Virus record (IMG/VR): IMGVR_UViG_3300021957_000095
Span: 1 to 41,361 of that record
DNA: 41,361 bases
Origin: a virus
Reading direction: 5' to 3' (one strand)
The position numbers and the translations under genes are program-made. The notes beneath the pieces were generated by a model that saw only the letters and a program-made list of their open reading frames with translations, did not search any database and was not told the DNA's origin. This document shows positions 3,323 through 29,471 of this stretch, one piece after another. Within the stretch, counting starts at the first letter, position 1, and the number at the start of each line of letters is the position of its first letter.

Positions 3323-5140
3323 ATGACGTACGTTAAAATATCTGACCTTAGCTTTGCTCAAACTTTAACCGGTAATGAAATATTACCGGTAGTGCAGAAT
3401 GGTACGTCGTATAAAGTATCAGTTAGTGCTGTTGGAGGTGCAGGTGGTGATACGGAGAATATTAATGGTTGCTGCAATGATATTAGTACCGGTAGTAACT
3501 ATAGTAGCATTGTAGGCGGTAAATATAACGATGTTTATGGTAACTGTAGTTTTATAGGTGGCGGTTCTACTAATGCATTATCAGCTGATTTTGGGTTTAT
3601 AGGTGGCGGTAATAGTCATAAAGTGTATAGCCCGGGAGGTATAATCGGTGGAGGTTCGCAAAATCTAATTGATATAAATGGTTATATCGATACTATCGGT
3701 GGTGGTAACGGTAACAGTATACGTCCTAGTTTTAAAAACTCATTCATTGGTGGAGGGTACGGTAATGCGATGTCTAATGTCAGCCCGGATCGCTTTTGTG
3801 CATCTACTGCGTCACGGTTTAATAGTATAGGTGGTGGTAATCAAAATGCTATAGGGGGATTTTGTTTTACAAAATGTGCACATTCGAATACCATTGCCGG
3901 TGGTAAATACAACGGTATAGGTGGTATAGAATTACAGTTGTTCCCTAATGAGAATTGTACATCAAATTATAATTTTATAGGCGGTGGTTATTCAAACGGT
4001 GTAAATGGACACTTTTCTGGTATTACTGCAGGTAGCTGTAACAGGATACATGCAAACCTCTCCGGTGCATTTATTGGAGGTGGTTATAGTAATACTATAC
4101 GTAATGTAGATGGTACTGAGGGTGGAGATTATTCATCTATTGTTGGTGGTAAACAAAATCAACTGTCAGCTGATTTTGGATTTATCGGCGGTGGATGGGG
4201 AAATACTGTATCATCAGCGTGCGGTACTATTGGTGGTGGTTATGGCAATTCATTGAGCAGTGTTGGTGGGTTTATCGGGAGTGGTTTAAACAATACAGTA
4301 AAAAGTGGATTAGCCACCGACTTCAATACGGGTCAATTACTACCCGTACCGGCAATAATTGTAGGTGGTCAACGCAATAAAATATTAAATTCAACTTCCA
4401 GTTTTATAGGCGGCGGTGATGCTAATAAAATCGCCGGCTATGCCGCATGCGCCACCGGTAATATCATAGTAGGTGGTTATGGCAATCAGAATATAGACGG
4501 TTTCCAAAGTGTTATAATTGGAGGCACTCTTAATACTTTAAGTGGTAATAACATCGACCGCGACAGTAACTCTAGAAACCTTATAGGTGGAGGCTGCCAG
4601 AATACAATAATAGGCCATGGTAATGAGAGCTCACAACACAATGCTATTTTAGCCGGGTCAAACAATCAAATTGGACCAGAAACTGAACCTGGCGAGAAAA
4701 TGTTGGACAGTGTAATTGCTGGTGGTAAATTTAATCAAATTATAACTTGCGGTGCTAGCACCACCAGCTTTATAGGTGCAGGACAAGGTAATAGTTTAAC
4801 CGGTACGAATTTTGCAGGTAATAGTCTTTTTGCTAACGTAAGTGGTTTAAATAATGCTGTTGTTGCAGGGTATGATGTTGATATTTACGGATGTCAGAGT
4901 TTTATTGGCTCTGGATTTTTAAATACAATTTGCGGTGACTACTCGTCAATCATAACAGGTTGTAGTAATAATAATAATCATAATAACTCGCATATTGTAG
5001 GTTCAGATATAACAACTGTTTCTGGTAATATGCTTCATGCAAATACGTTATATTTAAGTGCTGCAGCTTTACCGACGACCGATCCTGGTGTATCTGGGGT
5101 TGTCTGGAGAGACGGTACAGATTTAAAGATAAGTTTATAA
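3323..5140 (+). CDS. Tail fibre/adhesin-like Gly-Asn repeat protein A
   Basis: A 605-residue probable tail adhesin. The N-terminal 40 residues (KISDLSFAQTLTGNEILPVVQNG) resemble the attachment end of phage tail proteins. The body is built of many GGG-x-x-N units (IGGGSTNALSA, IGGGYGNSLSS) with variable loops, resembling the stacked head repeats of trimeric autotransporter adhesins. The C-terminal 45 residues (from about SDITTVSGNMLHANTLYL to the end) match paralogue B at 5528-7111 almost exactly. Repeat spacing is irregular compared with B. A TATAAATA-type late box lies 5 nt upstream of the start. Role as a host-recognition fibre is inferred from repeats, end conservation and late promoter; the receptor is unknown. 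Confidence 0.8.
   Translation: MTYVKISDLSFAQTLTGNEILPVVQNGTSYKVSVSAVGGAGGDTENINGCCNDISTGSNYSSIVGGKYNDVYGNCSFIGGGSTNALSADFGFIGGGNSHKVYSPGGIIGGGSQNLIDINGYIDTIGGGNGNSIRPSFKNSFIGGGYGNAMSNVSPDRFCASTASRFNSIGGGNQNAIGGFCFTKCAHSNTIAGGKYNGIGGIELQLFPNENCTSNYNFIGGGYSNGVNGHFSGITAGSCNRIHANLSGAFIGGGYSNTIRNVDGTEGGDYSSIVGGKQNQLSADFGFIGGGWGNTVSSACGTIGGGYGNSLSSVGGFIGSGLNNTVKSGLATDFNTGQLLPVPAIIVGGQRNKILNSTSSFIGGGDANKIAGYAACATGNIIVGGYGNQNIDGFQSVIIGGTLNTLSGNNIDRDSNSRNLIGGGCQNTIIGHGNESSQHNAILAGSNNQIGPETEPGEKMLDSVIAGGKFNQIITCGASTTSFIGAGQGNSLTGTNFAGNSLFANVSGLNNAVVAGYDVDIYGCQSFIGSGFLNTICGDYSSIITGCSNNNNHNNSHIVGSDITTVSGNMLHANTLYLSAAALPTTDPGVSGVVWRDGTDLKISL
3473..3610 (+). repeat. Direct repeat, 5' copy in adhesin A (partner 5675-5812)
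   Basis: A 138-bp tract shared with 5675-5812 in adhesin B, with one mismatch seen (C at 3576, T at 5778). Flanking parts of the two genes are clearly more diverged, so this looks like recent gene conversion or selection on a shared module. Confidence 0.9.
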
Positions 5141-5150
5141 ATATAATAAA
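5000..5150 (+). repeat. Direct repeat, 3' copy in adhesin A (partner 6971-7121)
   Basis: A 151-bp tract shared with 6971-7121, with one mismatch seen (G at 5074, A at 7045). It covers the C-terminal coding end, the stop codon and the late promoter of the next gene, so both adhesin genes end in the same coding-plus-promoter module. Confidence 0.92.
5136..5143 (+). promoter_or_regulatory. Late promoter box TATAAATA
   Basis: A perfect TATAAATA that overlaps the stop codon of adhesin A. The ATG at 5154 follows after 10 nt, a longer gap than the usual 5. Confidence 0.65.
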
Positions 5151-5153
5151 AAA

Positions 5154-5522
5154 ATGATTAAGTCAAATAAAAAATATATTAAAAGTTTAAATCCTTGCGA
5201 TACCGGTAAAGATAATTTATTTAAGCAGCTCTTAGGTTTAAATGAAACTGTAGAATTTAATCTACTTATAGCTGATTTTAAAGATGTTCTCTGGGCTTTA
5301 ATACAATCAGAAATTGGTAGGAATGTAATTTCCGATATACTTTTAAAATATCACGAATCTTTGCAGGTTAGTAAATATAAACGAAAAGTGTATAGAATTA
5401 TGGTAAGATTTAATGCTAATAATAATATAGAGAATTTATTTATTTTAAATAAAGACGATAATAATTTTGAAAATTACTTCAAGACAGAATGTAACAGTTT
5501 AAACATATCTTTAACTAATTAA
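5154..5522 (+). CDS. Hypothetical protein between the adhesin paralogues
   Basis: A 122-residue lysine- and asparagine-rich protein that I do not recognise. It appears mostly helical in the middle (residues about 30-65, FNLLIADFKDVLWALIQSEIGRNVISDILL), with a charged N terminus and an Asn-rich C terminus. There is no membrane segment or cysteine motif. It is preceded by a perfect TATAAATA late box and followed 5 nt later by adhesin B. Its position between two fibre-type genes suggests a fibre assembly chaperone or an accessory tail protein, which is inference from context only. Confidence 0.75.
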   Translation: MIKSNKKYIKSLNPCDTGKDNLFKQLLGLNETVEFNLLIADFKDVLWALIQSEIGRNVISDILLKYHESLQVSKYKRKVYRIMVRFNANNNIENLFILNKDDNNFENYFKTECNSLNISLTN

Positions 5523-5527
5523 TAAAA

Positions 5528-7111
5528 ATGGCTTACGTAAAAATATCTGATTTAAATTTTGCTCAAACTTTAACAGGTAATGAAATATTACCGGTAGTGC
5601 AAAATGGTACATCGTATAAAGTATCAGTTAGTGCTGTTGGTGGTACCGGTGATACGGAAAATATTAACGGTCGATGCAATGATATTAGTACCGGTAGTAA
5701 CTATAGTAGCATTGTAGGCGGTAAATATAACGATGTTTATGGTAACTGTAGTTTTATAGGTGGCGGTTCTACTAATGTATTATCAGCTGATTTTGGGTTT
5801 ATAGGTGGCGGTACTGGTCATATTGCATATTCAATAGGTGGCTTTATAGGCGGCGGCTCAGGTAATGATACATGTCCTAATACATGCCTTGATACTATCG
5901 GTGGTGGTAACGGTAATGTAGTTGATTCAGGATTTAAACTTTCATTTATTGGCGGCGGTAAAAGTAATTTTATGGAAACCGGCAACGCTTGTGCAAGTGC
6001 AGATTCAAGTTTCAATAATCAAGGTAACACAATCGTCGGTGGTAATCAAAATTCAATAGGCACAAAAGGTAACCCTCTAAAGGGGTTACCGGGAATGACA
6101 AAAGCTTTATGTCATAATACTGTTGTAGGTGGTTATTTGAACAAAATTTCTAAATTCGGGACAATAGCTAACCCGCTATCAGCTGAAGATTTAGAATCAA
6201 AATATAGCTTTATAGGCGGCGGTGTAAATAACGGTATAAACGGTAACTATACTGCTATAGTTGGCGGAAGTAATAATAAAGTATACTCCGGTGTAAAAGG
6301 TGGTTTTGTAGGAGGTGGAGTATACAATACTATACGTAATGTAGACGGTACCGCGGGTGGAAATTATTCATCTATCGTTGGTGGTTGTTGTAATAATGCT
6401 ACCGGTAATTGTTCGAATATAGGCGGCGGTACGCTTAATACATCTAGTGGTGATGTTGCAACTATAGGCGGCGGTGGGGTTAATAATGCTAGCGGTGCTT
6501 GTTCAACTATAGGTGGTGGTATACAAAATACAGCTAGTGGTGATCGTTCGAACGTAGCTGGCGGCGGGGTTAATTATGCTACTGGTATTGGTGCAACCAT
6601 AGCTGGTGGCTTTGTTAATTATGCTATTGGTAATTGCTCGAGCATAGGTGGAGGTGTAAACAATAGAGCTGATGGTTTTGCTGCAACTTTAGGTGGCGGA
6701 GGTGATAATATAGCTAGTGGTTGTTATTCAACTTTAGCTGGAGGTGTAGACAATACAGCTAATGGCTGTAGATCAACTGTAGCTGGAGGTATACAAAATA
6801 CAGCTAGTGGTATTGCTTCAAACGTAGGCGGTGGTAGAAAAAATACAGCTAGTGGTAATTATTCGAATGTAGCTGGTGGTTGCAATAACAATTTATCTGC
6901 ATCGTTTGGTTTTATTGCTGGTGGGTGTTCTAATAATTTAAAAACAGGACATAGTAACTCGCAAATACTCGGTTCAGATATAACAACTGTTTCTGGTAAT
7001 ATGCTTCATGCAAATACGTTATATTTAAGTGCTGCAGCTTTACCAACGACCGATCCTGGTGTATCTGGGGTTGTCTGGAGAGACGGTACAGATTTAAAGA
7101 TAAGTTTATAA
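5528..7111 (+). CDS. Tail fibre/adhesin-like Gly-Asn repeat protein B
   Basis: A 527-residue paralogue of the protein at 3323-5140. The N-terminal 40 residues and C-terminal 45 residues are nearly the same as in A; the centre differs. Residues about 283-447 form eleven 15-residue repeats with consensus IGGGxxNxASGxxST, each exactly 45 nt. These probably stack as a beta-roll or beta-helix shaft, as in trimeric adhesin heads. Several repeats carry a cysteine (GACST, GNCSS, GCYST). No strong late box lies in the 5 nt between the upstream stop and this ATG, so it is probably co-transcribed from 5136. Role in host binding is inferred; the duplicate may give alternative specificity. Confidence 0.8.
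   Translation: MAYVKISDLNFAQTLTGNEILPVVQNGTSYKVSVSAVGGTGDTENINGRCNDISTGSNYSSIVGGKYNDVYGNCSFIGGGSTNVLSADFGFIGGGTGHIAYSIGGFIGGGSGNDTCPNTCLDTIGGGNGNVVDSGFKLSFIGGGKSNFMETGNACASADSSFNNQGNTIVGGNQNSIGTKGNPLKGLPGMTKALCHNTVVGGYLNKISKFGTIANPLSAEDLESKYSFIGGGVNNGINGNYTAIVGGSNNKVYSGVKGGFVGGGVYNTIRNVDGTAGGNYSSIVGGCCNNATGNCSNIGGGTLNTSSGDVATIGGGGVNNASGACSTIGGGIQNTASGDRSNVAGGGVNYATGIGATIAGGFVNYAIGNCSSIGGGVNNRADGFAATLGGGGDNIASGCYSTLAGGVDNTANGCRSTVAGGIQNTASGIASNVGGGRKNTASGNYSNVAGGCNNNLSASFGFIAGGCSNNLKTGHSNSQILGSDITTVSGNMLHANTLYLSAAALPTTDPGVSGVVWRDGTDLKISL
5675..5812 (+). repeat. Direct repeat, 5' copy in adhesin B (partner 3473-3610)
   Basis: Second copy of the 138-bp shared tract, offset 2202 bp from the first, in the same reading frame of the paralogous gene. 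Confidence 0.9.
6374..6868 (+). repeat. In-frame 45-nt tandem repeats (11 units)
   Basis: Eleven consecutive 15-codon units, each opening with an Ile/Val/Leu codon then Gly-rich GGN triplets, an AAT (Asn) and a GGT (Gly) at fixed places. The period is exact with no indels, although third-codon positions vary. This makes the array a likely site for repeat-number change. Confidence 0.88.
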
Positions 7112-7121
7112 ATATAATAAA
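6971..7121 (+). repeat. Direct repeat, 3' copy in adhesin B (partner 5000-5150)
   Basis: Second copy of the 151-bp tract, offset 1971 bp, including the stop codon and the TATAAATA box that serves the next gene. Confidence 0.92.
7107..7114 (+). promoter_or_regulatory. Late promoter box TATAAATA
   Basis: A perfect TATAAATA overlapping the stop of adhesin B, 7 nt before the ATG at 7122. It lies within the duplicated 151-bp tract. Confidence 0.68.
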
Positions 7122-8837
7122 ATGGCCTTTCCACCTCCACCAATTAAGCTGTTTAAAAACGATTTAAACAGGTCGAAGAATGTAACTAAATATAGATACA
7201 AGATACCTGGTCTAGGTTCATCGCCGGATTCATCAGTTATAACAATACCTTCATTAGATCCATTTAATAATGAAATTGTATTTTTTGAAACACAAATTGA
7301 TTTTACCGGTTCAGGTAATGGTCTTGTAACAGAGGATGGGAGATTATATGGAAATTCTATATTAGGCGAACCGGTATTATCGTTAAATGGTAATCCTTTT
7401 TATTCAGGTGCGACATTATCTGCAACAACGAGATATTCTCAAAAAAGCTTATATTTTGTTGATAATTCATTCAAATCTAAAAGTATAAATTTTGACTTTT
7501 TGTTAGATGGAGCTAAAAATTATAGCTTAAGAAGAGATTTTTATAATACAAGCGGAGTCGAAACAACAAGCACATATGCTATTTCAGTATTTGATTTTAA
7601 TAATTTAAATGTAGTTTTATCAACTAACACGCTATCTGTCATAGGTGGCACTGATGAAAATATACAAATAAAGATTACTAACAGTAAACAATCCGGTAAT
7701 ATAGTAGATGGTAAAACTAATTTTAAAGTAGACTTCGGAGCTAATGGAGATAGAAATGAAAGTTCTATTTTTTCAAATTTATTGAATATAGAAACTGTTA
7801 ATTATACGTATACGGAATCTTTTACTGGAACAAATACATTGACATTATCTACTATTAGAAATGATGGTTTTGCGAGTGATTTAATTACCACTACTTTAAA
7901 CGTAAATGTATTAATAGCGTTTACATTCAGTTTTAATGCAATTACAAGGAATAATATATCAACTACTTGGAATACTATTTCTGGTGTAGATAATCCAAAT
8001 AATATTGAAGATAAATATAGATTTCTGACTTTTGATAGTAATAAATTATTATCAGGTGCATGGAATACTGAATGGTGGGGGTATAGTGCGAGAGATATTT
8101 ATAATTTCTCCGGTACTAGTTATAGTATGAGAGGTACTAGTGGTAATAAAGATGAAAATAATATTACACTTATAACACCGAAACATGGTATATGTAACTC
8201 ACACTGGGGTAGTAGTGAAGATCCTAATGTAGGAGATTCAGCTTTCTTTTATGACCATACTACAGGAGATTCAGTTTCAGCAGAAGTTATATCGGTATCA
8301 GCAACTGGAAGAAGCGATATAACTATGGTAAAGTTTGATAGAGATTTAACTCAACAAGGTAATATTAAGGTTTATAAATTACCTAGATTTGACGGTATAG
8401 GCAGTAATTATAGTGCAGTATTAGACAATAAATTAGCAACACTAACGCAAGGCGGTAATGGACCGTTCGGTACCGGTGAAACGGATTGTTTTGCTGGTCT
8501 TGGTTGTAGTGGTAAATTAAATCAAAGTTATGGTGGTATTGCAGCTGGTAATTATTTTGAAACAAAAAATGCAAGAACATCGCTAGCTTCTGTATCTTCT
8601 GTTTTCAGTAATTCGTTCTTCGGGTTAAGTAGCTTTAACGTAGGTGATAGTAGCAGCCCGACGTTTATAATTTATGATAATGATATTTTATTATCATCAA
8701 CATTATATGCTACGAGTAGTGATTTAACCATTGGTCCAGGATATGGTTTATCTGCAATACAAGCTGTATTATCTTCAGGGTTAATTGAATTAGGTAACAG
8801 CGAAGGTTATGAATTATCTACTGTAAGAATTTATTAA
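7122..8837 (+). CDS. Virion protein with trypsin-like serine protease fold
   Basis: A 571-residue probable tail protein. The N-terminal part (to about residue 340) is beta-rich and Asn/Ser/Thr-rich with no clear homologue. The C-terminal part has the signature order of a chymotrypsin-fold protease. A His segment (ITPKHGICNSHW, with His361 the likelier catalytic His and His355 as alternative) is followed by SDITMVKF with Asp399. Then comes VGDSSSPTF with Ser510, in the place of the classical GDSGGP. Spacings of 38 and 111 residues fit this fold broadly. A late promoter 7 nt upstream and position after the adhesins suggest a fibre-associated or self-processing protein. The triad is read from motif order only; the GDSSSP departs from the canonical glycines, so activity is uncertain. 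Confidence 0.7.
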   Translation: MAFPPPPIKLFKNDLNRSKNVTKYRYKIPGLGSSPDSSVITIPSLDPFNNEIVFFETQIDFTGSGNGLVTEDGRLYGNSILGEPVLSLNGNPFYSGATLSATTRYSQKSLYFVDNSFKSKSINFDFLLDGAKNYSLRRDFYNTSGVETTSTYAISVFDFNNLNVVLSTNTLSVIGGTDENIQIKITNSKQSGNIVDGKTNFKVDFGANGDRNESSIFSNLLNIETVNYTYTESFTGTNTLTLSTIRNDGFASDLITTTLNVNVLIAFTFSFNAITRNNISTTWNTISGVDNPNNIEDKYRFLTFDSNKLLSGAWNTEWWGYSARDIYNFSGTSYSMRGTSGNKDENNITLITPKHGICNSHWGSSEDPNVGDSAFFYDHTTGDSVSAEVISVSATGRSDITMVKFDRDLTQQGNIKVYKLPRFDGIGSNYSAVLDNKLATLTQGGNGPFGTGETDCFAGLGCSGKLNQSYGGIAAGNYFETKNARTSLASVSSVFSNSFFGLSSFNVGDSSSPTFIIYDNDILLSSTLYATSSDLTIGPGYGLSAIQAVLSSGLIELGNSEGYELSTVRIY

Positions 8838-10026: not shown

Positions 10027-10776
10027 ATGCAAAATAAAAAAGTTATAGTTACGTTATCTGGAGGCGCTGATTCAGCAGTATTGCTTTATAAAGCTGCTGA
10101 GCAATATGATGAAGTACATACTGTTACATTTGATTATGGTCAGCGACATGAGAGTAGAGAGGTAGGAGCTTCTGAGAAGCAATTATTAAATGCAAGTGTA
10201 GATTACCCGAATGTAACTTTTACTAACAAGTTACTAGATGTAAAATACATTAAAGATATTGCACCTACTTCATCTCTTACAAATAATGATATAGAAACAC
10301 CTAATGTAAAAGATATTATGGGTGAAGCGCAGCCGAAGAGTTACGTTCCATTCCGTAATTTAATGTTCATAAGTATATTAGCATCTTATGCTGAAGCAAT
10401 AAAAGCGTCAGAAATTTGGTATGGTGCTGCTGAGGCAGATAGCTTAGCTGGTTACTGGGATGGCTCTGCAGAGTTTGTTGATGAGATGAATAAATTAACA
10501 TCACTTAATAGAGAATATAAAGTAACGCTCGTTGCTCCTCTTATTAAAATGTCTAAGAAGGATATTATATTAGATGGTGTTTCTTTAGGTGTTAACTTTA
10601 AAGATACATATACTTGTTACTCTGGTGAATACCCTTGTGATGCTGAGTCTGCTAGTAGCAGCTTACGGTTAAAAGGCTTTATAGATGCTAAGCTAAAAGA
10701 TCCTCTTTTATATAAACAGCAAGATAAGCTAGACGCTGTATATGAAAAGAATGATTGTAAGACAATTGTAAAATAA
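10027..10776 (+). CDS. queC: QueC-like 7-cyano-7-deazaguanine (preQ0) synthase
   Basis: QueC converts 7-carboxy-7-deazaguanine to preQ0 using ammonia and ATP. The PP-loop SGGADS is at residues 11-16, followed by TFDYGQRH and VPFRNLMF, all typical of the family, and the length (249) is normal. The C-terminal zinc site is degenerate. C197 and C204 remain, but the two ligands expected at 207 and 210 of the C-x2-C-x2-C run are Glu and Ser. In phages QueC usually feeds 7-deazaguanine DNA modification that blocks restriction. The glutaminase and formyltransferase genes 1.5 kb downstream fit that. No QueD, QueE, FolE or DpdA gene is in this window, so substrate supply and insertion are unseen. Confidence 0.9.
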   Translation: MQNKKVIVTLSGGADSAVLLYKAAEQYDEVHTVTFDYGQRHESREVGASEKQLLNASVDYPNVTFTNKLLDVKYIKDIAPTSSLTNNDIETPNVKDIMGEAQPKSYVPFRNLMFISILASYAEAIKASEIWYGAAEADSLAGYWDGSAEFVDEMNKLTSLNREYKVTLVAPLIKMSKKDIILDGVSLGVNFKDTYTCYSGEYPCDAESASSSLRLKGFIDAKLKDPLLYKQQDKLDAVYEKNDCKTIVK

Positions 10777-12264: not shown

Positions 12265-12969
12265 ATGTGCGGTATATACATGTCAAATAATTTATCGATG
12301 TTCGAAGTATTAGAGCAAGCCAATAGAAAGAGAGGAAATTTTTCTACTGGGGTCTTTCATGCTTATAGAGCATCATCATATAAGGTTGTAAAGAAGCGCT
12401 TCTTTACATCGGTTGTAAAGAAGCAGGGTGGTATTGACTGGGATGAAGTAAAGCTACCTAGCGATAATTCTAGCAACTTTATATACCTAGGACATAATCA
12501 AGCTCCTACAAGCAGTGCACGGGAATGGAAAGAAGAGACCTCTCACCCATTCTGGTACGGTGATTGGGTTGTAGCTCATAACGGGGTTTTAACAAATTAT
12601 GAAGAGCTTATTGATGAATATCTACCAATGCATGATAGCCCCGTCGATAGTAGTATTATACCTGCATTATTAGATGAATTTGAATATAATCATGGTCCAT
12701 GCGAGGATGCAGATACAGAGATACAGAATATTTTATATACAATTGAAAAACTTAAAGGTACTTTTGCTCTTTGGATTGTTAATATTAGAACGATGAATGT
12801 TTATATAGCTAGACAGGGTAGTACGCTTTTCTATAATGATTCTAATGTATCGTCTGTAAAGGGAGATGGATATAAAGAAGTAGAGGAGGGCATACTTTAC
12901 AGTTATACGTCCGAGGGACTAGTAGAGCAAGATAATTTTAAGTACGATTCACCATTTTTAACATTATGA
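12265..12969 (+). CDS. Class II glutamine amidotransferase (glutaminase domain)
   Basis: Releases ammonia from glutamine for a partner enzyme. The start is fixed by the N-terminal nucleophile: Met1 then Cys2 (MCGIY). Other family positions are present: RGNFSTG around residue 23, HNQAPTS at 77, HPF at 94, HNGVLTNYEEL at 105 and DSS at 128. Only the glutaminase domain is here (234 residues); no synthetase or isomerase domain follows. An acceptor enzyme must therefore be supplied separately. The next gene (formyltransferase) overlaps it by 4 nt, and queC is 1.5 kb upstream. Class II glutaminase domains fused to QueC (Gat-QueC) make archaeosine-type bases, so a split Gat/QueC pair is a reasonable hypothesis. 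Amino-sugar or nucleotide synthesis are alternatives. Confidence 0.88.
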   Translation: MCGIYMSNNLSMFEVLEQANRKRGNFSTGVFHAYRASSYKVVKKRFFTSVVKKQGGIDWDEVKLPSDNSSNFIYLGHNQAPTSSAREWKEETSHPFWYGDWVVAHNGVLTNYEELIDEYLPMHDSPVDSSIIPALLDEFEYNHGPCEDADTEIQNILYTIEKLKGTFALWIVNIRTMNVYIARQGSTLFYNDSNVSSVKGDGYKEVEEGILYSYTSEGLVEQDNFKYDSPFLTL

Positions 12970-24004: not shown

Positions 24005-25039
24005 GTGATAGTCGTCCCAGAACAGTATACCATACAAGTATTATACGAGAATATCTATAAGATATCGTATAATAAGTATAGCCATTCGTATAATGGTTGC
24101 TGCCCTATATGCAAAGAAGGTGACTCCTGGGGTAAGAAGAAGCGATTCTACTATATACCTAAAAAGGATCTGGCATACTGCCATAATTGCGGTTACAGCA
24201 AGAAGACTTTAAGTTTTCTTTTAGACGTTACACACAAACCTTTACATTTTATTATTAATGAGATAAAGGAATTTGATGTAGATATACAAATGCCTCGCGA
24301 AGAGGTTAAAGAAGAGAAGAAGCTAATAGATAAGAGTTTACCGGAAGATTGTATTAACTTATCTGACCCCAGTCAAGTAGAGTACTATAAAGATAATGCA
24401 GCAGTAATAGCAGCTTTGAATTTAATTAAAGTTCGTAAACTAGATAAAGGAGTTAATAAACCTAAAACATTTTATATATCTTTAAAAGACCCTGTACATA
24501 AAAATAGACTAATCTTACCTTTCTATGATGATAATGGAGATATTATATTCTACCAATCTCGAGGGTTAATGAAAAAGGATTTATATGATCGACCGAAATA
24601 TCTTAGTAAAGTAGGCGCAGAAAGAAGCTTATACGGTATGCAAAATATTAATCCTGACTTAGATTATGTTTTTATCTTTGAGGGTCCGATTGATAGCTAT
24701 TTTGTAGAAAATGGTTTAGCTACTTGCGGTATTACAGAGAGAAGCGATAAGATGTTTACTGTATTACAAAAGCAGCAAATTAATAAGCTTAATTTATATG
24801 AGAAGATTTACGTGTTAGATAATCAACGCTGTGATAAAGCTGCATTGTTGAAGAGTATATCTCTAGCAGATAGCGGAGAGAAGGTTTTTATATGGCCGAA
24901 AGAGTTAAAGCAGTTTAAAGACTTCAATGATATATGTGTAATCGGTAATAAAGACAAAATAAGACCCGAATTCATATTAAAAAATACATATTCGGGTCTT
25001 AAAGCTAAATTGCTTTTAACTGAGATTAAAAATAATTAG
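24005..25039 (+). CDS. gp61: DNA primase, T4 gp61-like
   Basis: Makes RNA primers for the lagging strand with gp41. The 344-residue protein (T4 gp61 342) has an N-terminal zinc site (C33-x2-C36 and C59-x2-C62, in CCPICKEG and YCHNCGYS). The Toprim domain has IFEGPIDSYFV near residues 223-233 and an IYVLDNQRCDK strand later. The start is GTG at 24005. The ATG at 24003 runs straight into a stop, and the GTG is 6 nt from TATAAT, at the predicted transcription start. The 3' end overlaps a convergent minus-strand gene by 4 nt. Confidence 0.93.
   Translation: MIVVPEQYTIQVLYENIYKISYNKYSHSYNGCCPICKEGDSWGKKKRFYYIPKKDLAYCHNCGYSKKTLSFLLDVTHKPLHFIINEIKEFDVDIQMPREEVKEEKKLIDKSLPEDCINLSDPSQVEYYKDNAAVIAALNLIKVRKLDKGVNKPKTFYISLKDPVHKNRLILPFYDDNGDIIFYQSRGLMKKDLYDRPKYLSKVGAERSLYGMQNINPDLDYVFIFEGPIDSYFVENGLATCGITERSDKMFTVLQKQQINKLNLYEKIYVLDNQRCDKAALLKSISLADSGEKVFIWPKELKQFKDFNDICVIGNKDKIRPEFILKNTYSGLKAKLLLTEIKNN
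24961..25000. repeat. Inverted repeat in the 3' end of gp61
   Basis: Perfect 11-nt arms (AAGACCCGAAT 24961-24971, ATTCGGGTCTT 24990-25000) with an 18-nt loop. It lies inside coding sequence just before the convergent gene junction at 25036. No T-run follows, so it is not a standard terminator. Confidence 0.7.
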
Positions 25040-25347
25040 TTATAATAATCTGTTGTATCTCGGAACCCAACTTCATCTTTGATAAAATCCATTAATATCG
25101 GAAATTGATCATCACGTAGAGTATGTAAGAATTCCAACTCATCATCTCCGAGAGCATCAGCGAACTTTTCAGCCTTCTTTTCAAAATCAGAAGAATCACC
25201 TACTGATTCATCTTCTTCTGGCTCCATTCCTCCGAATTGATCATCTTCTGGAGCGTCTTCAGGAGCGTATTGCTCATTCATATCTTCAGGTAGAATTTTA
25301 GTTTGAGTATATCTTTCGAAGATTAAGTCTGTTTCTGTTGTGTTCAT
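25036..25347 (-). CDS. Hypothetical acidic protein (virion-type)
   Basis: A 103-residue strongly acidic protein (APEDAPEDDQFGGMEPEEDES in the middle), followed by a helical C-terminal half (FEKKAEKFADALGDDELEFLHTL). I do not recognise a family. It is convergent with and overlaps gp61 by 4 nt. It lies 11 nt downstream of another minus-strand acidic gene. Acidity, small size and the late-type upstream boxes in this cluster resemble capsid-core and virion accessory proteins of T4-like phages; that is inference. Confidence 0.72.
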   Translation of the reverse strand: MNTTETDLIFERYTQTKILPEDMNEQYAPEDAPEDDQFGGMEPEEDESVGDSSDFEKKAEKFADALGDDELEFLHTLRDDQFPILMDFIKDEVGFRDTTDYYN

Positions 25348-25352
25348 ATTGG

Positions 25353-25360
25353 TATTATTT
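25353..25360 (-). promoter_or_regulatory. Weak late-like box (minus strand)
   Basis: On the minus strand CTAAATAATA precedes CCAAT and the ATG at 25347. Either AAATAATA with a 5-nt gap or CTAAATA with a longer gap could serve. Confidence 0.35.
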
Positions 25361-25760
25361 AGTTAAATTTATACTTTGGATCATTAGCACCTGCTAAATA
25401 ACCTTTAAGAATTTCACTGAGTGATGAGACTTCCATTGCTACTCTAGCAATTTTTTTAGTTTCAGCATTTGAGATACTATCGAAAATTGTATCTGGTTCT
25501 GCGGAGTTAAGTGATGTTTGGATACTGTCAGATGTACCGTTAAGGTAGCTAGAGAATTCATCCATCTTCTGAATCCAGCTATTTAATTCATCATACATTT
25601 TTCTTTGTTGATCGTTAATTGACGATGTAACATCAGCAGGTGCATCAGCTCCAAGCTCGTCAGCAGTTACATCTTGTAGTTCAGCATCAAGAGCCTGTGC
25701 ATCTGAAAGCTCTTCATCTTGTTCTAAAATTTTATTAAATCTCTTTAAATACGTACTCAT
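25359..25760 (-). CDS. Hypothetical virion-type protein
   Basis: A 133-residue acidic helical protein beginning MSTYLKRFNKILEQDEELSD. The longer reading to 25796 adds residues that are simply the translated late promoter (ending ININ before this Met), so 25760 is chosen: CATAAATA lies exactly 5 nt upstream on this strand. The middle is Asp/Ala-rich, and the C-terminal half is helical (QRKMYDELNSWIQKMDEFSSYL). No family recognised. The late promoter and acid-rich make-up suggest a structural or prohead protein. Confidence 0.74.
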   Translation of the reverse strand: MSTYLKRFNKILEQDEELSDAQALDAELQDVTADELGADAPADVTSSINDQQRKMYDELNSWIQKMDEFSSYLNGTSDSIQTSLNSAEPDTIFDSISNAETKKIARVAMEVSSLSEILKGYLAGANDPKYKFN

Positions 25761-25765
25761 ATTTA

Positions 25766-25773
25766 TATTTATG
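25766..25773 (-). promoter_or_regulatory. Late promoter box CATAAATA (minus strand)
   Basis: On the minus strand CATAAATA, then TAAAT, then the ATG at 25760 (5-nt gap). The identical 16-nt string precedes the gene starting at 28528. Confidence 0.7.
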
Positions 25774-25781
25774 TAAAATAG

Positions 25782-25789
25782 TATAAATA
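25782..25789 (+). promoter_or_regulatory. Late promoter box TATAAATA
   Basis: A perfect TATAAATA 5 nt before the ATG at 25795. It is divergent from the minus-strand late box at 25766-25773, within a 34-nt intergenic gap. Confidence 0.75.
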
Positions 25790-25794
25790 TATAC

Positions 25795-26160
25795 ATGAGA
25801 CGAGCAATTTTTGAGGATAGTGAAATTCCAGACGTTCAAAGACAAGTCGCTGGTATAGGTACATCAGCTGTTGACGCGGGAGGTATGAGATTAGATAGCT
25901 TATTGCAGCATAAGAATGAAGATTTAAAGTCTCAAGCTGGTAATAAATTATACCCTATAAACAATATAGATGAAGCTATTTCAGATGCTTTTATTAATAT
26001 TTCAAATGCACAGAGACTTTTAGATATAGCTAATCAAAATCCAACGCTAAAATCTAGTAAAAAATTGATTGTAAAATTAGAGAATAATCTCAAGCAAGTA
26101 GCTCATTTATTAGTTGACTTTGATGAAACATTGTCTATAATAAAGGGTGATGAGAAGTAG
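25795..26160 (+). CDS. Hypothetical protein, late
   Basis: A 121-residue helical protein, unrecognised. It starts RRAIFEDSEIPDVQRQVAGIG, and the rest is amphipathic helix (DEAISDAFINISNAQRLLDIA, LKSSKKLIVKLENNLKQVAHL). It has no cysteine and no membrane segment. A perfect TATAAATA 5 nt upstream makes it a late gene, probably virion-associated. The early promoter of the next gene lies inside its 3' end, and the two genes overlap by 11 nt. Confidence 0.74.
   Translation: MRRAIFEDSEIPDVQRQVAGIGTSAVDAGGMRLDSLLQHKNEDLKSQAGNKLYPINNIDEAISDAFINISNAQRLLDIANQNPTLKSSKKLIVKLENNLKQVAHLLVDFDETLSIIKGDEK
26114..26141 (+). promoter_or_regulatory. Early-type promoter inside an upstream gene
   Basis: TTGACT (26114-26119), 16-nt spacer, TATAAT (26136-26141). 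The ATG at 26150 follows after 8 nt (an in-frame GTG at 26147 after 5). It lies within the coding end of the late gene at 25795-26160. Confidence 0.7.
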
Positions 26161-27224: not shown

Positions 27225-27405
27225 TTCATTCACTAATAGAACGACAAAGTTTGGTCGCTATTTTAAACGAGGTAACACATATGTTATAAAGAACATATCA
27301 CCTAAGGATGGTAAATTTACATATACCTTTACCAGCTCTGATGGAGATAAAGAAATTGTATTTAATACAGTTAAAGAAGCAGATGCCTTTTTAAGTAATT
27401 TCTAG
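27205..27405 (+). CDS. Small beta-rich hypothetical protein
   Basis: A 66-residue basic protein (NSFTNRTTKFGRYFKRGNTYV, FTYTFTSSDGDKEIVFNTVKE) that looks like a small beta-barrel or beta-sheet domain. The gene overlaps its upstream neighbour by 20 nt, with AGAGG about 8 nt before the ATG. It converges on the minus-strand neck gene with a 4-nt overlap of stop codons (27402-27405). No family recognised. Confidence 0.72.
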   Translation: MKFIPGNSFTNRTTKFGRYFKRGNTYVIKNISPKDGKFTYTFTSSDGDKEIVFNTVKEADAFLSNF

Positions 27406-28190
27406 TAATAATCACCGTATACATCGGTATCATTAACTCTCATATCGAAAACCTCGTCTATACTAGTCTGGTCAGCGCTATACTCATCATACCCATCTTT
27501 CTTAGGTTCAGTTTCCGTATTAGCGCCTCCAGATAATCTACCAGCAAACGCATCTTCGTATATCTGCTGATTACCAGATATACTTTCATTGAGAGAGTTG
27601 AAAGGTATACCAGGTTCGAAGCTATAATCGTAACGCTTAGCTTTAATCAGGAATACATAGTGCCCGGCAAGGTTATTAATCTGCGCGATATCTTCATCTA
27701 GCTTCTCCGTAACCTCAAAATATTTAGGTTGTCTATCTGCAGGTCTGTCATCGCCGAATTCTGATAACTGGAATATATCACCAGCTTTAGGTTCAACTAT
27801 AGAGTATTGAGTATCGTATACTGATGAGAGTGTTTCAAATTTTGCCTGGAATGAAGAGATATGTATATAGGCTGTTATTTCATCATCACTTAGGAAGCCG
27901 TATTTACTTAACGTTATTGCGTTATCGTTCAGATTAACAGCCATTATTAGATCTCTAGGCGGGGCAAATGTTTTTGTTGGTTGCTCACCGTATATATTAT
28001 CTGCGGAAAGAACATTGAATGTATTAACAAAGTATTCAATCTTCACACCATATTGATTTATAAGCTCTCTCCACCAATTACTAAATAATACACGTTCAGA
28101 TTGCTGTACACTCTTATCTGTAAATCTCCAGCATGCTTCATCATCCTGTACAACACCGGGGTAGCAGTTATTATCGTAGTTTATACTCAT
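27402..28190 (-). CDS. gp14: Neck/head-completion protein, gp14-like
   Basis: A 262-residue protein (T4 gp14 256) expected to form part of the neck ring that joins capsid to tail. Pattern support: IEYFVNTFNVLSADNIYGEQP, then ITLSKYGFLSDDEITAYIH, EPKAGDIFQLSEF, KYFEVTEKLDEDIAQINNLAG and VFLIKAKRYDYSFEPGIPF. This is the gp14 order of a 'long edge, data, property, Fe/Ys' beta-sandwich seen in the T4 neck family. The C terminus is polar and disordered. It overlaps the upstream minus-strand gene by 4 nt (ATGA), so it is co-transcribed from the late box at 28534-28541. Assignment is from remembered family pattern, not alignment. Confidence 0.72.
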   Translation of the reverse strand: MSINYDNNCYPGVVQDDEACWRFTDKSVQQSERVLFSNWWRELINQYGVKIEYFVNTFNVLSADNIYGEQPTKTFAPPRDLIMAVNLNDNAITLSKYGFLSDDEITAYIHISSFQAKFETLSSVYDTQYSIVEPKAGDIFQLSEFGDDRPADRQPKYFEVTEKLDEDIAQINNLAGHYVFLIKAKRYDYSFEPGIPFNSLNESISGNQQIYEDAFAGRLSGGANTETEPKKDGYDEYSADQTSIDEVFDMRVNDTDVYGDYY

Positions 28191-28528
28191 TTTTGTAACA
28201 TGAATGTTTGAGTTTGTGGGTTGTAAGATAAAACAATACCTGTGCGGCCGAGTGTTTGAGATTTATCTTTATGAGGTACTATACTAAATGTTTTTGTTAT
28301 ATACTGTAAGTCAGCTGGTGTACACGCGCAAGACCCTTTATTATTCTTTAAATTTTCTATCTTCTGATTCTTAGATGCATCTGTTTTAACATAATCAGGT
28401 ACCAGATTTACATGTTTACGTCTATATGTTGAATGAGTATCAGTGAACCCAGTGCCTCTATGTCTGTGATTAACGCCAGGTTGTGTGCCACTATATTTGC
28501 TCTCAAAAAACTTTTTAAACGGTAACAT
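28187..28528 (-). CDS. Hypothetical basic virion-type protein
   Basis: A 113-residue basic protein, unrecognised. Features: HRHRGTGFTDTHSTYRRKHVN near residue 22, then DASKNQKIENLKNNKGSCACT, and a beta-rich end (TGIVLSYNPQTQTFMLQK). The start at 28528 (MLPFKKFF) is chosen over the upstream Met. The residues before it (ININ) are the translated late promoter CATAAATA, which lies exactly 5 nt upstream. It is translationally coupled to the gp14-like gene and is probably a neck or head-tail accessory protein. Confidence 0.74.
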   Translation of the reverse strand: MLPFKKFFESKYSGTQPGVNHRHRGTGFTDTHSTYRRKHVNLVPDYVKTDASKNQKIENLKNNKGSCACTPADLQYITKTFSIVPHKDKSQTLGRTGIVLSYNPQTQTFMLQK

Positions 28529-28533
28529 ATTTA

Positions 28534-28541
28534 TATTTATG
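28534..28541 (-). promoter_or_regulatory. Late promoter box CATAAATA (minus strand)
   Basis: On the minus strand CATAAATA-TAAAT-ATG, with the ATG at 28528. It sits just past the terminator at 28545-28579, so it restarts transcription for the neck genes. Confidence 0.72.
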
Positions 28542-28544
28542 CAA

Positions 28545-28579
28545 AAAAAAGCTGCAACCAATAAAGTTGCAGCTTTTTT
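28545..28579. terminator. Hairpin terminator between minus-strand genes
   Basis: 14-bp stem (AAAAAAGCTGCAAC 28545-28558, GTTGCAGCTTTTTT 28566-28579) with a 7-nt loop and A/T runs on both sides. It ends the 28596-29471 transcript on the minus strand. Confidence 0.88.
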
Positions 28580-28595
28580 AAATTATATTAATCTA

Positions 28596-29129
28596 TTAAG
28601 CAAATAATGAACCGCCAGTAGAACCAGTCTTTGTACCGCCTACTTTATTGTTCTTCGATGTAAGTTTACCTTTACCATCAGCAAGTGGCTTACCCTTACC
28701 ATCTACGGTTGATTTAACTTGACCTTGTGCTTTACCACCAGAAGCTTTAACAGATCCAACTTTATTCTGCTTTGATGTAAGCTTATGACCAGCTGAGCTT
28801 GGAACTTCTTTCATTTCAGTAGCTTCATCAACTGTCTCATCTTCATCTTCATCTTCTTCAGCTTCTTCAAAAGAATTAAATCCTTCTTCGCCTTCGTAAT
28901 CTTCTTCACCGGCATCGTCATCGTCATCTTCAACTTCTTCTTCTCCGAGTTGAGATTGGATTAGGTCACATAATTGCTGTGCCATATCACGGTCAAGAGT
29001 TAATGTAATCTCGTCAGTCTCTTCAGCGTCTGCGCCAGTTTCATCAGCGTCAATACCGAGAGCGTCAAGCTCTTCAATAGATTCGTCACCCATTACATCT
29101 TCAAATAATTTATCAAAAACAGATTTCAT
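28596..29129 (-). CDS. Nested short form of the acidic protein (internal start)
   Basis: A 177-residue product starting MKSVFDKLFEDVMGDESIEE at 29129, in frame with and ending at the same stop as the 291-residue protein. A perfect TATAAATA (29135-29142, minus strand) lies exactly 5 nt before this ATG. The box and gap are translated as IN-IN in the long form. This suggests either a nested gene with its own late promoter, or an ancestral gene pair fused by loss of a stop. The short form holds the acidic core. Confidence 0.62.
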   Translation of the reverse strand: MKSVFDKLFEDVMGDESIEELDALGIDADETGADAEETDEITLTLDRDMAQQLCDLIQSQLGEEEVEDDDDDAGEEDYEGEEGFNSFEEAEEDEDEDETVDEATEMKEVPSSAGHKLTSKQNKVGSVKASGGKAQGQVKSTVDGKGKPLADGKGKLTSKNNKVGGTKTGSTGGSLFA

Positions 29130-29471
29130 ATTAATATTTATACCTTCTCTATACGTTTTTTCAACTTTTTCATCAAACTTTTCTGAACTATATTTTTCTG
29201 GCTCGTATAAATTCTCTTTATCGCCTTTTTTCTTTTTAGGATCTATAGGCGCATGCATGCCTTCAATCTCATAAACCGGATCTGTAGTACCCTCACCACC
29301 AGCATGCTGTATTTTTTTTGCTTCTTTTGAATCAAGTTCAACGGCACCTGGACCAGGCTTGGTGTTCATTTTTTTGTCTCCACCTTCGATAGGTCTAGTA
29401 GTTTTACCTTCTTTTATGATCGAGTCAGCGTATACGTTCCATATCTCGGTTAGATTATTCTTTTTTGACAT
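28596..29471 (-). CDS. Acidic prohead/virion-type protein, long form
   Basis: A 291-residue protein on the minus strand, unrecognised by family. Residues 1-110 are Lys/Gly-rich (NNLTEIWNVYADSIIKEGKT, KMNTKPGPGAVELDSKEAKK). Residues 115-225 are highly acidic with an internal helix (LTLDRDMAQQLCDLIQSQLGE) and long Glu/Asp runs (EVEDDDDDAGEEDYEGEEG). The C terminus is Gly/Lys-rich with two copies of KLTSK(Q/N)NKVG. Such composition resembles T4 prohead-core proteins (gp67/gp68), but this is only compositional. Its own TATAAATA lies 5 nt upstream of 29471. A second in-frame start with a perfect late promoter lies at 29129 (next entry), so two products are likely. Confidence 0.74.
   Translation of the reverse strand: MSKKNNLTEIWNVYADSIIKEGKTTRPIEGGDKKMNTKPGPGAVELDSKEAKKIQHAGGEGTTDPVYEIEGMHAPIDPKKKKGDKENLYEPEKYSSEKFDEKVEKTYREGININMKSVFDKLFEDVMGDESIEELDALGIDADETGADAEETDEITLTLDRDMAQQLCDLIQSQLGEEEVEDDDDDAGEEDYEGEEGFNSFEEAEEDEDEDETVDEATEMKEVPSSAGHKLTSKQNKVGSVKASGGKAQGQVKSTVDGKGKPLADGKGKLTSKNNKVGGTKTGSTGGSLFA
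29135..29142 (-). promoter_or_regulatory. Internal late promoter box TATAAATA (minus strand)
   Basis: On the minus strand TATAAATA-TTAAT-ATG, with the ATG at 29129. It lies inside the coding sequence of the long form. Confidence 0.68.

Follow-up and report, generated by a model that had tools for sequence, protein, structure and literature searches.

Of the phage tail enzymes that are known to act on the host surface, most degrade glycans or peptidoglycan. Serine proteases are known from tailed phages as well, among them the T4 gp21 prohead protease and the Peptidase_S74 chaperone of fibres, but their folds and motifs differ from those of the 571-residue protein described here, which gave no profile match to either of them. 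A trypsin-like serine protease is annotated in phiM9 (AKE44730.1; also mentioned in PMC10783043), likewise a phage of the T4 superfamily. The phiM9 protein differs from ours in its length of 230 residues, its motifs of the ITAAH...GMSGGG type, an N-terminal hydrophobic segment and a gene that adjoins gp23 outside the tail locus, and no relation to our family was detected when this single sequence was compared by HHalign (0.1%). The Rhodococcus phage Shagrat also codes for an S1 protease with a GDSGGP motif (WIC88976.1), but this is an ordinary S1A-like enzyme (27.6% to bovine trypsin), whose gene lies between serine hydrolase and HNH genes and for which a fusion to a tail module was not seen. 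In the open-access papers searched we found no description of tail proteases of the kind considered below.

The DNA analyzed here (the window, 41.4 kb) is a fragment of a marine T4-like myovirus from a virus record and codes for DNA polymerase gp43, UvsX, a DnaB-type helicase, an ssDNA-binding protein, a primase, the terminase, sheath and tube. The interval between gp43 and uvsX holds a small cassette on the plus strand. It consists of two YadA-head-like adhesins (605 residues, 3323-5140; 527 residues, 5528-7111), a protein of 122 residues (5154-5522) which is also found in the relatives L001 (100%) and L002 (77%), and the protease-like protein of 571 residues (7122-8837, stop codon counted). 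The gene of the 527-residue adhesin lies directly upstream of the protease-like gene, and the location behind two adhesins given in a preliminary description of this DNA is correct. Both adhesins share a near-identical N-terminus (ISDL-FAQTLTGNEILPVVQNGTSYKVSVSAVGG) and C-terminus (GNMLHANTLYLSAAALPTTDPGVSGVVWRDGTDLKISL), with differing repeat regions between them. The close relative L001 possesses one adhesin and a remnant of 33 residues (3647-3745; record G001:7497-7595, minus strand), which is located just 5' of the 122-residue gene and matches the C-terminus of the window adhesin; it looks as if one of two tandem adhesins was deleted there.

In the 571-residue protein we distinguish an N-terminal region (residues 1-278; 7122-7955, plus strand), to which the searches assigned no family, and a serine-protease-like domain together with a conserved segment upstream of it (residues 279-571; 7956-8834, plus strand). 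Hydropathy gave no sign of a signal peptide or a membrane helix. Three motifs were found exactly where they had been described before: ITPKHGICNSHW at residues 351-362 with His355 (codon 8184-8186) and His361 (8202-8204), SDITMVKF at 398-405 with Asp399 (8316-8318), and VGDSSSPTF at 507-515 with Ser510 (8649-8651), the predicted nucleophile. The replacement of GGP by SSP was likewise read correctly, the loop at residues 508-513 (8643-8660) being GDSSSP. A pattern of trypsin-like motifs, spaced as in a triad and anchored on His355, matches this frame only among the stop-to-stop frames of the window with at least 100 residues; when the C-terminal 241 residues were shuffled 200,000 times, it matched once. 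As it was written once the motifs were known, this result is to be taken as a sanity check only, and better, independent support comes from the 16 related domains described below, all of which possess H361, D399 and S510. The protein is under purifying selection, with a dN/dS of 0.24 against L001 and of approximately 0.28 for the protease domain against L002.

Searches of Pfam, NCBIfam, PHROGs and PDB sequences with the window protein gave no useful match; the Pfam models Trypsin (PF00089) and Trypsin_2 (PF13365) matched neither this protein at E≤10 nor any of its relatives. The PROSITE pattern TRYPSIN_HIS, [LIVM]-[ST]-A-[STAG]-H-C, is not found in its strict form, since the window protein reads I-C-N-S-H-W, the relative L011 I-S-V-A-H-F and a podovirus relative L-S-V-A-H-T. 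A similarity to OXA beta-lactamase, which appeared with a two-sequence profile (E 0.011 to 0.35), turned out to be a chance match to RDLT..G.I.V and was gone once more sequences were included. As neither the libraries nor the PDB sequence search recognize the protein, the case depends on its relatives.

Scans of viral contigs revealed L001 (98%) and L002 (51%), followed by L011-L014, L019, L025, L028, L030, L035 and L036. Additional copies are present in the records of these relatives, namely a paralogue of 648 residues (L054) and domains within Thr-rich proteins (L050-L053). The latter are giant Thr/Ser-rich frames of approximately 1.8-2.4 thousand residues with TTTSTTSTSTS linkers and CC..PP modules, in which the second copy of the protease-like domain lies mostly within the first 600 residues. 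A further relative is the protein UOF78081 of the podovirus MW202510 (hmmsearch E 5.5e-14 with this single sequence counted; HHalign 96%). Scans of genome contigs gave no relatives, and tblastn of phage records with the proteins of the window, L002, L011 and L019 gave zero matches.

In an alignment of 11 rows both histidines, Asp399 and Ser510 are invariant. Five more distant rows, which brought the alignment to 16 domains taken from several virus records, reduce the invariant positions to eight, G331, H361, D399, G445, G508, D509, S510 and P513, a set that includes the triad and the G-D-S-x-x-P loop. The most distant rows had been trimmed to the surroundings of the motifs, and the invariance depends in part on how they were aligned. 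D378 varies in the larger alignment, and His355 is replaced by Phe in L054. The preliminary description had named His361 first, with His355 as the alternative, and its first choice is right. His361 is present in all 16 sequences and aligns to His57 of the S1 proteases, which leaves it as the predicted catalytic base; His355, which looked right initially, does not align to His57 but to the turn preceding the strand that leads into His361. Together with the Phe in the paralogue this makes it very unlikely as the base, and its conservation is probably non-catalytic.

The nucleophile loop itself reads GDSSSP in the window protein, L001, L002, L053 and L054, GDSSGP in L050-L052, GDSGNP in L019 and the canonical GDSGGP in L011, L012, L013, L025, L030, L035 and L036; the podovirus relative possesses SRRHILSVAHT...GDSGSP. 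The equivalents of Gly193, Asp194, Ser195 and Pro198 are therefore constant, and at position 196 the window clade and some paralogues have Ser, others Gly. Serine at both 196 and 197 is unusual and counts against our proposal. One may ask whether the domain has the chymotrypsin fold but is inactive and serves as a binding module, a reading for which the two of six loop positions that deviate from GDSGGP and the degenerate His57 motif could be cited. Pseudoproteases, however, usually miss a triad residue, and here the triad and G-D-S-x-x-P account for most of the positions that are invariant across the 16 sequences; we regard inactivity as quite improbable.

To S1 proteases the domain was compared on the profile level, using bovine trypsin (verified against PDB trypsin entries) and ten bacterial or phage proteins. 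The 11-row family aligned to these 11 sequences with a HHalign probability of 88% (E 3e-6, score 47.6), a value that fell to 45% when the same comparison was run with an extra alignment option, with the residue pairing unchanged. Among the controls, none of 200 column shuffles exceeded 20.4, and the reversed columns scored 16.6. With 16 rows the probability was 94% (E 1.7e-7, score 56.8) compared to a maximum of 15.2 in 100 shuffles; the adhesin control scored 9.6 and the window clade alone 29.4. H361 is paired with His57, D399 with Asp102 and S510 with Ser195, and TLI-P-HG---H361 is aligned to SLINSQWVVSAAH57. If the GDSGGP columns are masked the score drops to 25.0, still above every shuffle but with low probability, which indicates that the nucleophile loop holds much of the signal.

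The likeness to the chymotrypsin/trypsin type (S1, PA clan) thus includes, besides the profile-profile probabilities of 88-94%, the order and spacing of the triad, the G-D-S-x-x-P loop, D-[IL]-x-[LMV]-[VIL] at Asp102 (SDITMVKF resembling NDIMLIKL, with the Asp present in 16 of 16 rows) and the segment before the His, where TLITPKHGICNSH resembles SLINSQWVVSAAH of S1. Unlike S1 proteases in general, the domain escapes both Pfam trypsin models, lacks -H-C- after His57, has Ser at both 196 and 197 in the window clade, is free of any cysteine in the L011 clade and is fused to phage N-terminal regions.

A further hint arises from structure models. The AlphaFold2 model of the window protein (3 rows) was uninformative with a pLDDT of 26, and the best model, that of the L011 domain (11 rows), is still poor (pLDDT 42, pTM 0.48). 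Structure prediction and a fold search had been suggested as the check on the preliminary description; at this confidence the models are too weak to reveal a double barrel or the proximity of the three residues, but the search itself led to chymotrypsins. Foldseek placed them first for the weak L011-domain model (probability 0.91, E 0.014, above 0.001), and VIA-align returned almost exclusively chymotrypsin-fold chains with Z-scores of 5.2-6.0, a range under 8 that can reflect a common arrangement; its best row had Z 6.0, an rmsd of 4.8 and 131 aligned residues. A fold absent from the VIA-align list does not count as excluded. The chymotrypsin fold is weakly supported in this way, and the structural matches agree with the sequence result, short of proving the fold.

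The low model confidence and the lack of a significant match in the PDB sequence searches could also point to a serine hydrolase of another fold, such as an esterase or amidase, in which the order of the catalytic residues is alike by convergence. We consider this very improbable. The HHalign score exceeds all shuffles, and the shuffle maximum even with GDSGGP masked; the His-Asp-Ser order, the spacing of 38 and 111 residues and the pattern around the Asp fit S1, and the structural matches of the weak model are nearly all chymotrypsins. At the family level the previously suggested chymotrypsin-type protease domain is borne out by the invariant residues, the profile comparison, the relatives with GDSGGP and the model matches, and judged from sequence the C-terminal domain is very probably a serine protease of the S1 type.

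The question of where such a protease acts leads to the gene context. A YadA-like adhesin adjoins the protease-like gene in the window, in L001, in L002 and at each of the two loci of G003, a record of 185 kb. In L001 the adhesin (4155-5990) directly precedes the protease-like gene (6001-7716). In L002 the 122-residue gene and the adhesin lie downstream of it, gp15 precedes it and the portal gene comes after the adhesin. The L011 clade possesses no adjoining YadA-like adhesin; there the gene is part of a baseplate operon of T4 type, with baseplate-type proteins (a gp6-like helical domain, a PKD-containing protein) on one side and Gp10_C and Mtd_N/collar fibre proteins on the other. In the podovirus tail cluster, again with no adhesin of this type adjoining, it follows internal virion and structural proteins and, directly, a predicted rhamnogalacturonan lyase. 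The giant Thr-rich proteins are a further setting of the family.

In the window, TATAAATA lies directly 5' of the protease-like start (7107-7114, plus strand) as a candidate T4-type late promoter element. Its TAAATA signature also occurs 5' of the terminase, sheath and tube genes. Counted by eye, TAAATA lies at most 30 nt upstream of eight of the 11 starts in the last part of the window, which begins with the terminase (29490), and of three of the five fibre-locus starts (3323, 5154, 7122), compared to only three of the remaining 27. The octamer is no more frequent in the window than expected by chance, and its placement before starts alone is of interest. As TAAATA is common to structural genes, late expression of the protease-like gene fits, short of proof; since the gene lies between gp43 and uvsX, outside the main structural block, we infer "late" from this signature. 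Two upstream signatures can be told apart by their positions, one like ACTATAAT before several replication or early-type genes (e.g. 2227, 8900, 12265, 24005) and TAAATA before structural genes (e.g. 7122, 31831, 34300, 40227).

The flanking replication genes count against a tail protein and would suit a protease that stays unpackaged and acts on proteins of the host or the phage within the infected cell. The loci of relatives that were read, however, link the gene to tail, baseplate and adhesin genes, the upstream element is that of structural genes, and the trypsin-like protein of phiM9 is, in contrast, lone and short with a hydrophobic N-terminal segment. An intracellular role therefore appears improbable, and from its gene context the protein is likely to be tail-associated. 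Judged by eye, the adhesin-linked relatives L019 and L054 have N-termini similar to that of the window protein, and those of L002 and of the L011 clade differ; the variable N-terminal region could accordingly be a swappable anchoring module.

The authors therefore arrive at the following proposal. The C-terminal domain (approximately residues 314-571) would be a divergent chymotrypsin relative (PA clan, S1-like), in which H361, D399 and S510 form the triad and G508-D509-S510 the oxyanion loop. The exchangeable N-terminal region could anchor it to the tail or the adhesin complex, contact with the cell would be made through the neighboring YadA-like adhesins, and the protease might then cut host surface or receptor-masking proteins where the phage adsorbs. 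We slightly favor host-surface proteins as the substrate; for the whole chain, a tail- or fibre-associated serine protease acting on such proteins at the adsorption site, we see about even chances.

As the linkage to adhesins is tight, fibre processing is a serious rival, in which the protease would mature phage proteins, either the neighboring adhesins and fibres or itself, during tail assembly and leave the host untouched. The gene lies right next to adhesins in the window, in L001, in L002 and in both G003 loci, and where the domain is embedded in the Thr-rich proteins a cut in cis is conceivable. In the window-type proteins, however, it is C-terminal with nothing downstream to release, it also occurs in the L011 clade and the podovirus, where an adjoining YadA-like adhesin is missing, and an unsystematic look revealed no common cleavage motif. 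We hold maturation to be unlikely, though less so than the other alternatives. The reuse of the domain in varied scaffolds and the presence of two copies in one genome are more reminiscent of depolymerase modules than of a single protease for maturation.

Action on the host surface would make the protease a protein-cutting counterpart to the polysaccharide-degrading tailspikes. As in those depolymerases the enzyme would adjoin host-recognizing tail parts, and the podovirus gene even follows a predicted lyase; unlike them it would cut proteins instead of glycans, and a beta-helix is not known for it. The catalytic residues are kept by relatives in phage tail clusters, which points to a protease in some phages at the region of the virion that contacts the host. 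Tentatively, and with somewhat less than even confidence, we suggest an undescribed chymotrypsin-like family across phage tail modules, whose members would be "protein depolymerases" of the tail and would remove or process proteins of the host surface as the phage adsorbs. If this is true, a conserved domain in tail and adhesin loci lets uncultured phages act on protein layers, and proteins left blank by every annotation library used receive a catalytic label.

Elsewhere in the window, clusters of minus-strand frames with no assigned function lie 5' of the terminase gene (25036-25796, 27402-29471). A QueC-like gene and a glutamine-amidotransferase-like gene (10027-10776 and 12265-12969) are possible 7-deazaguanine modification genes.
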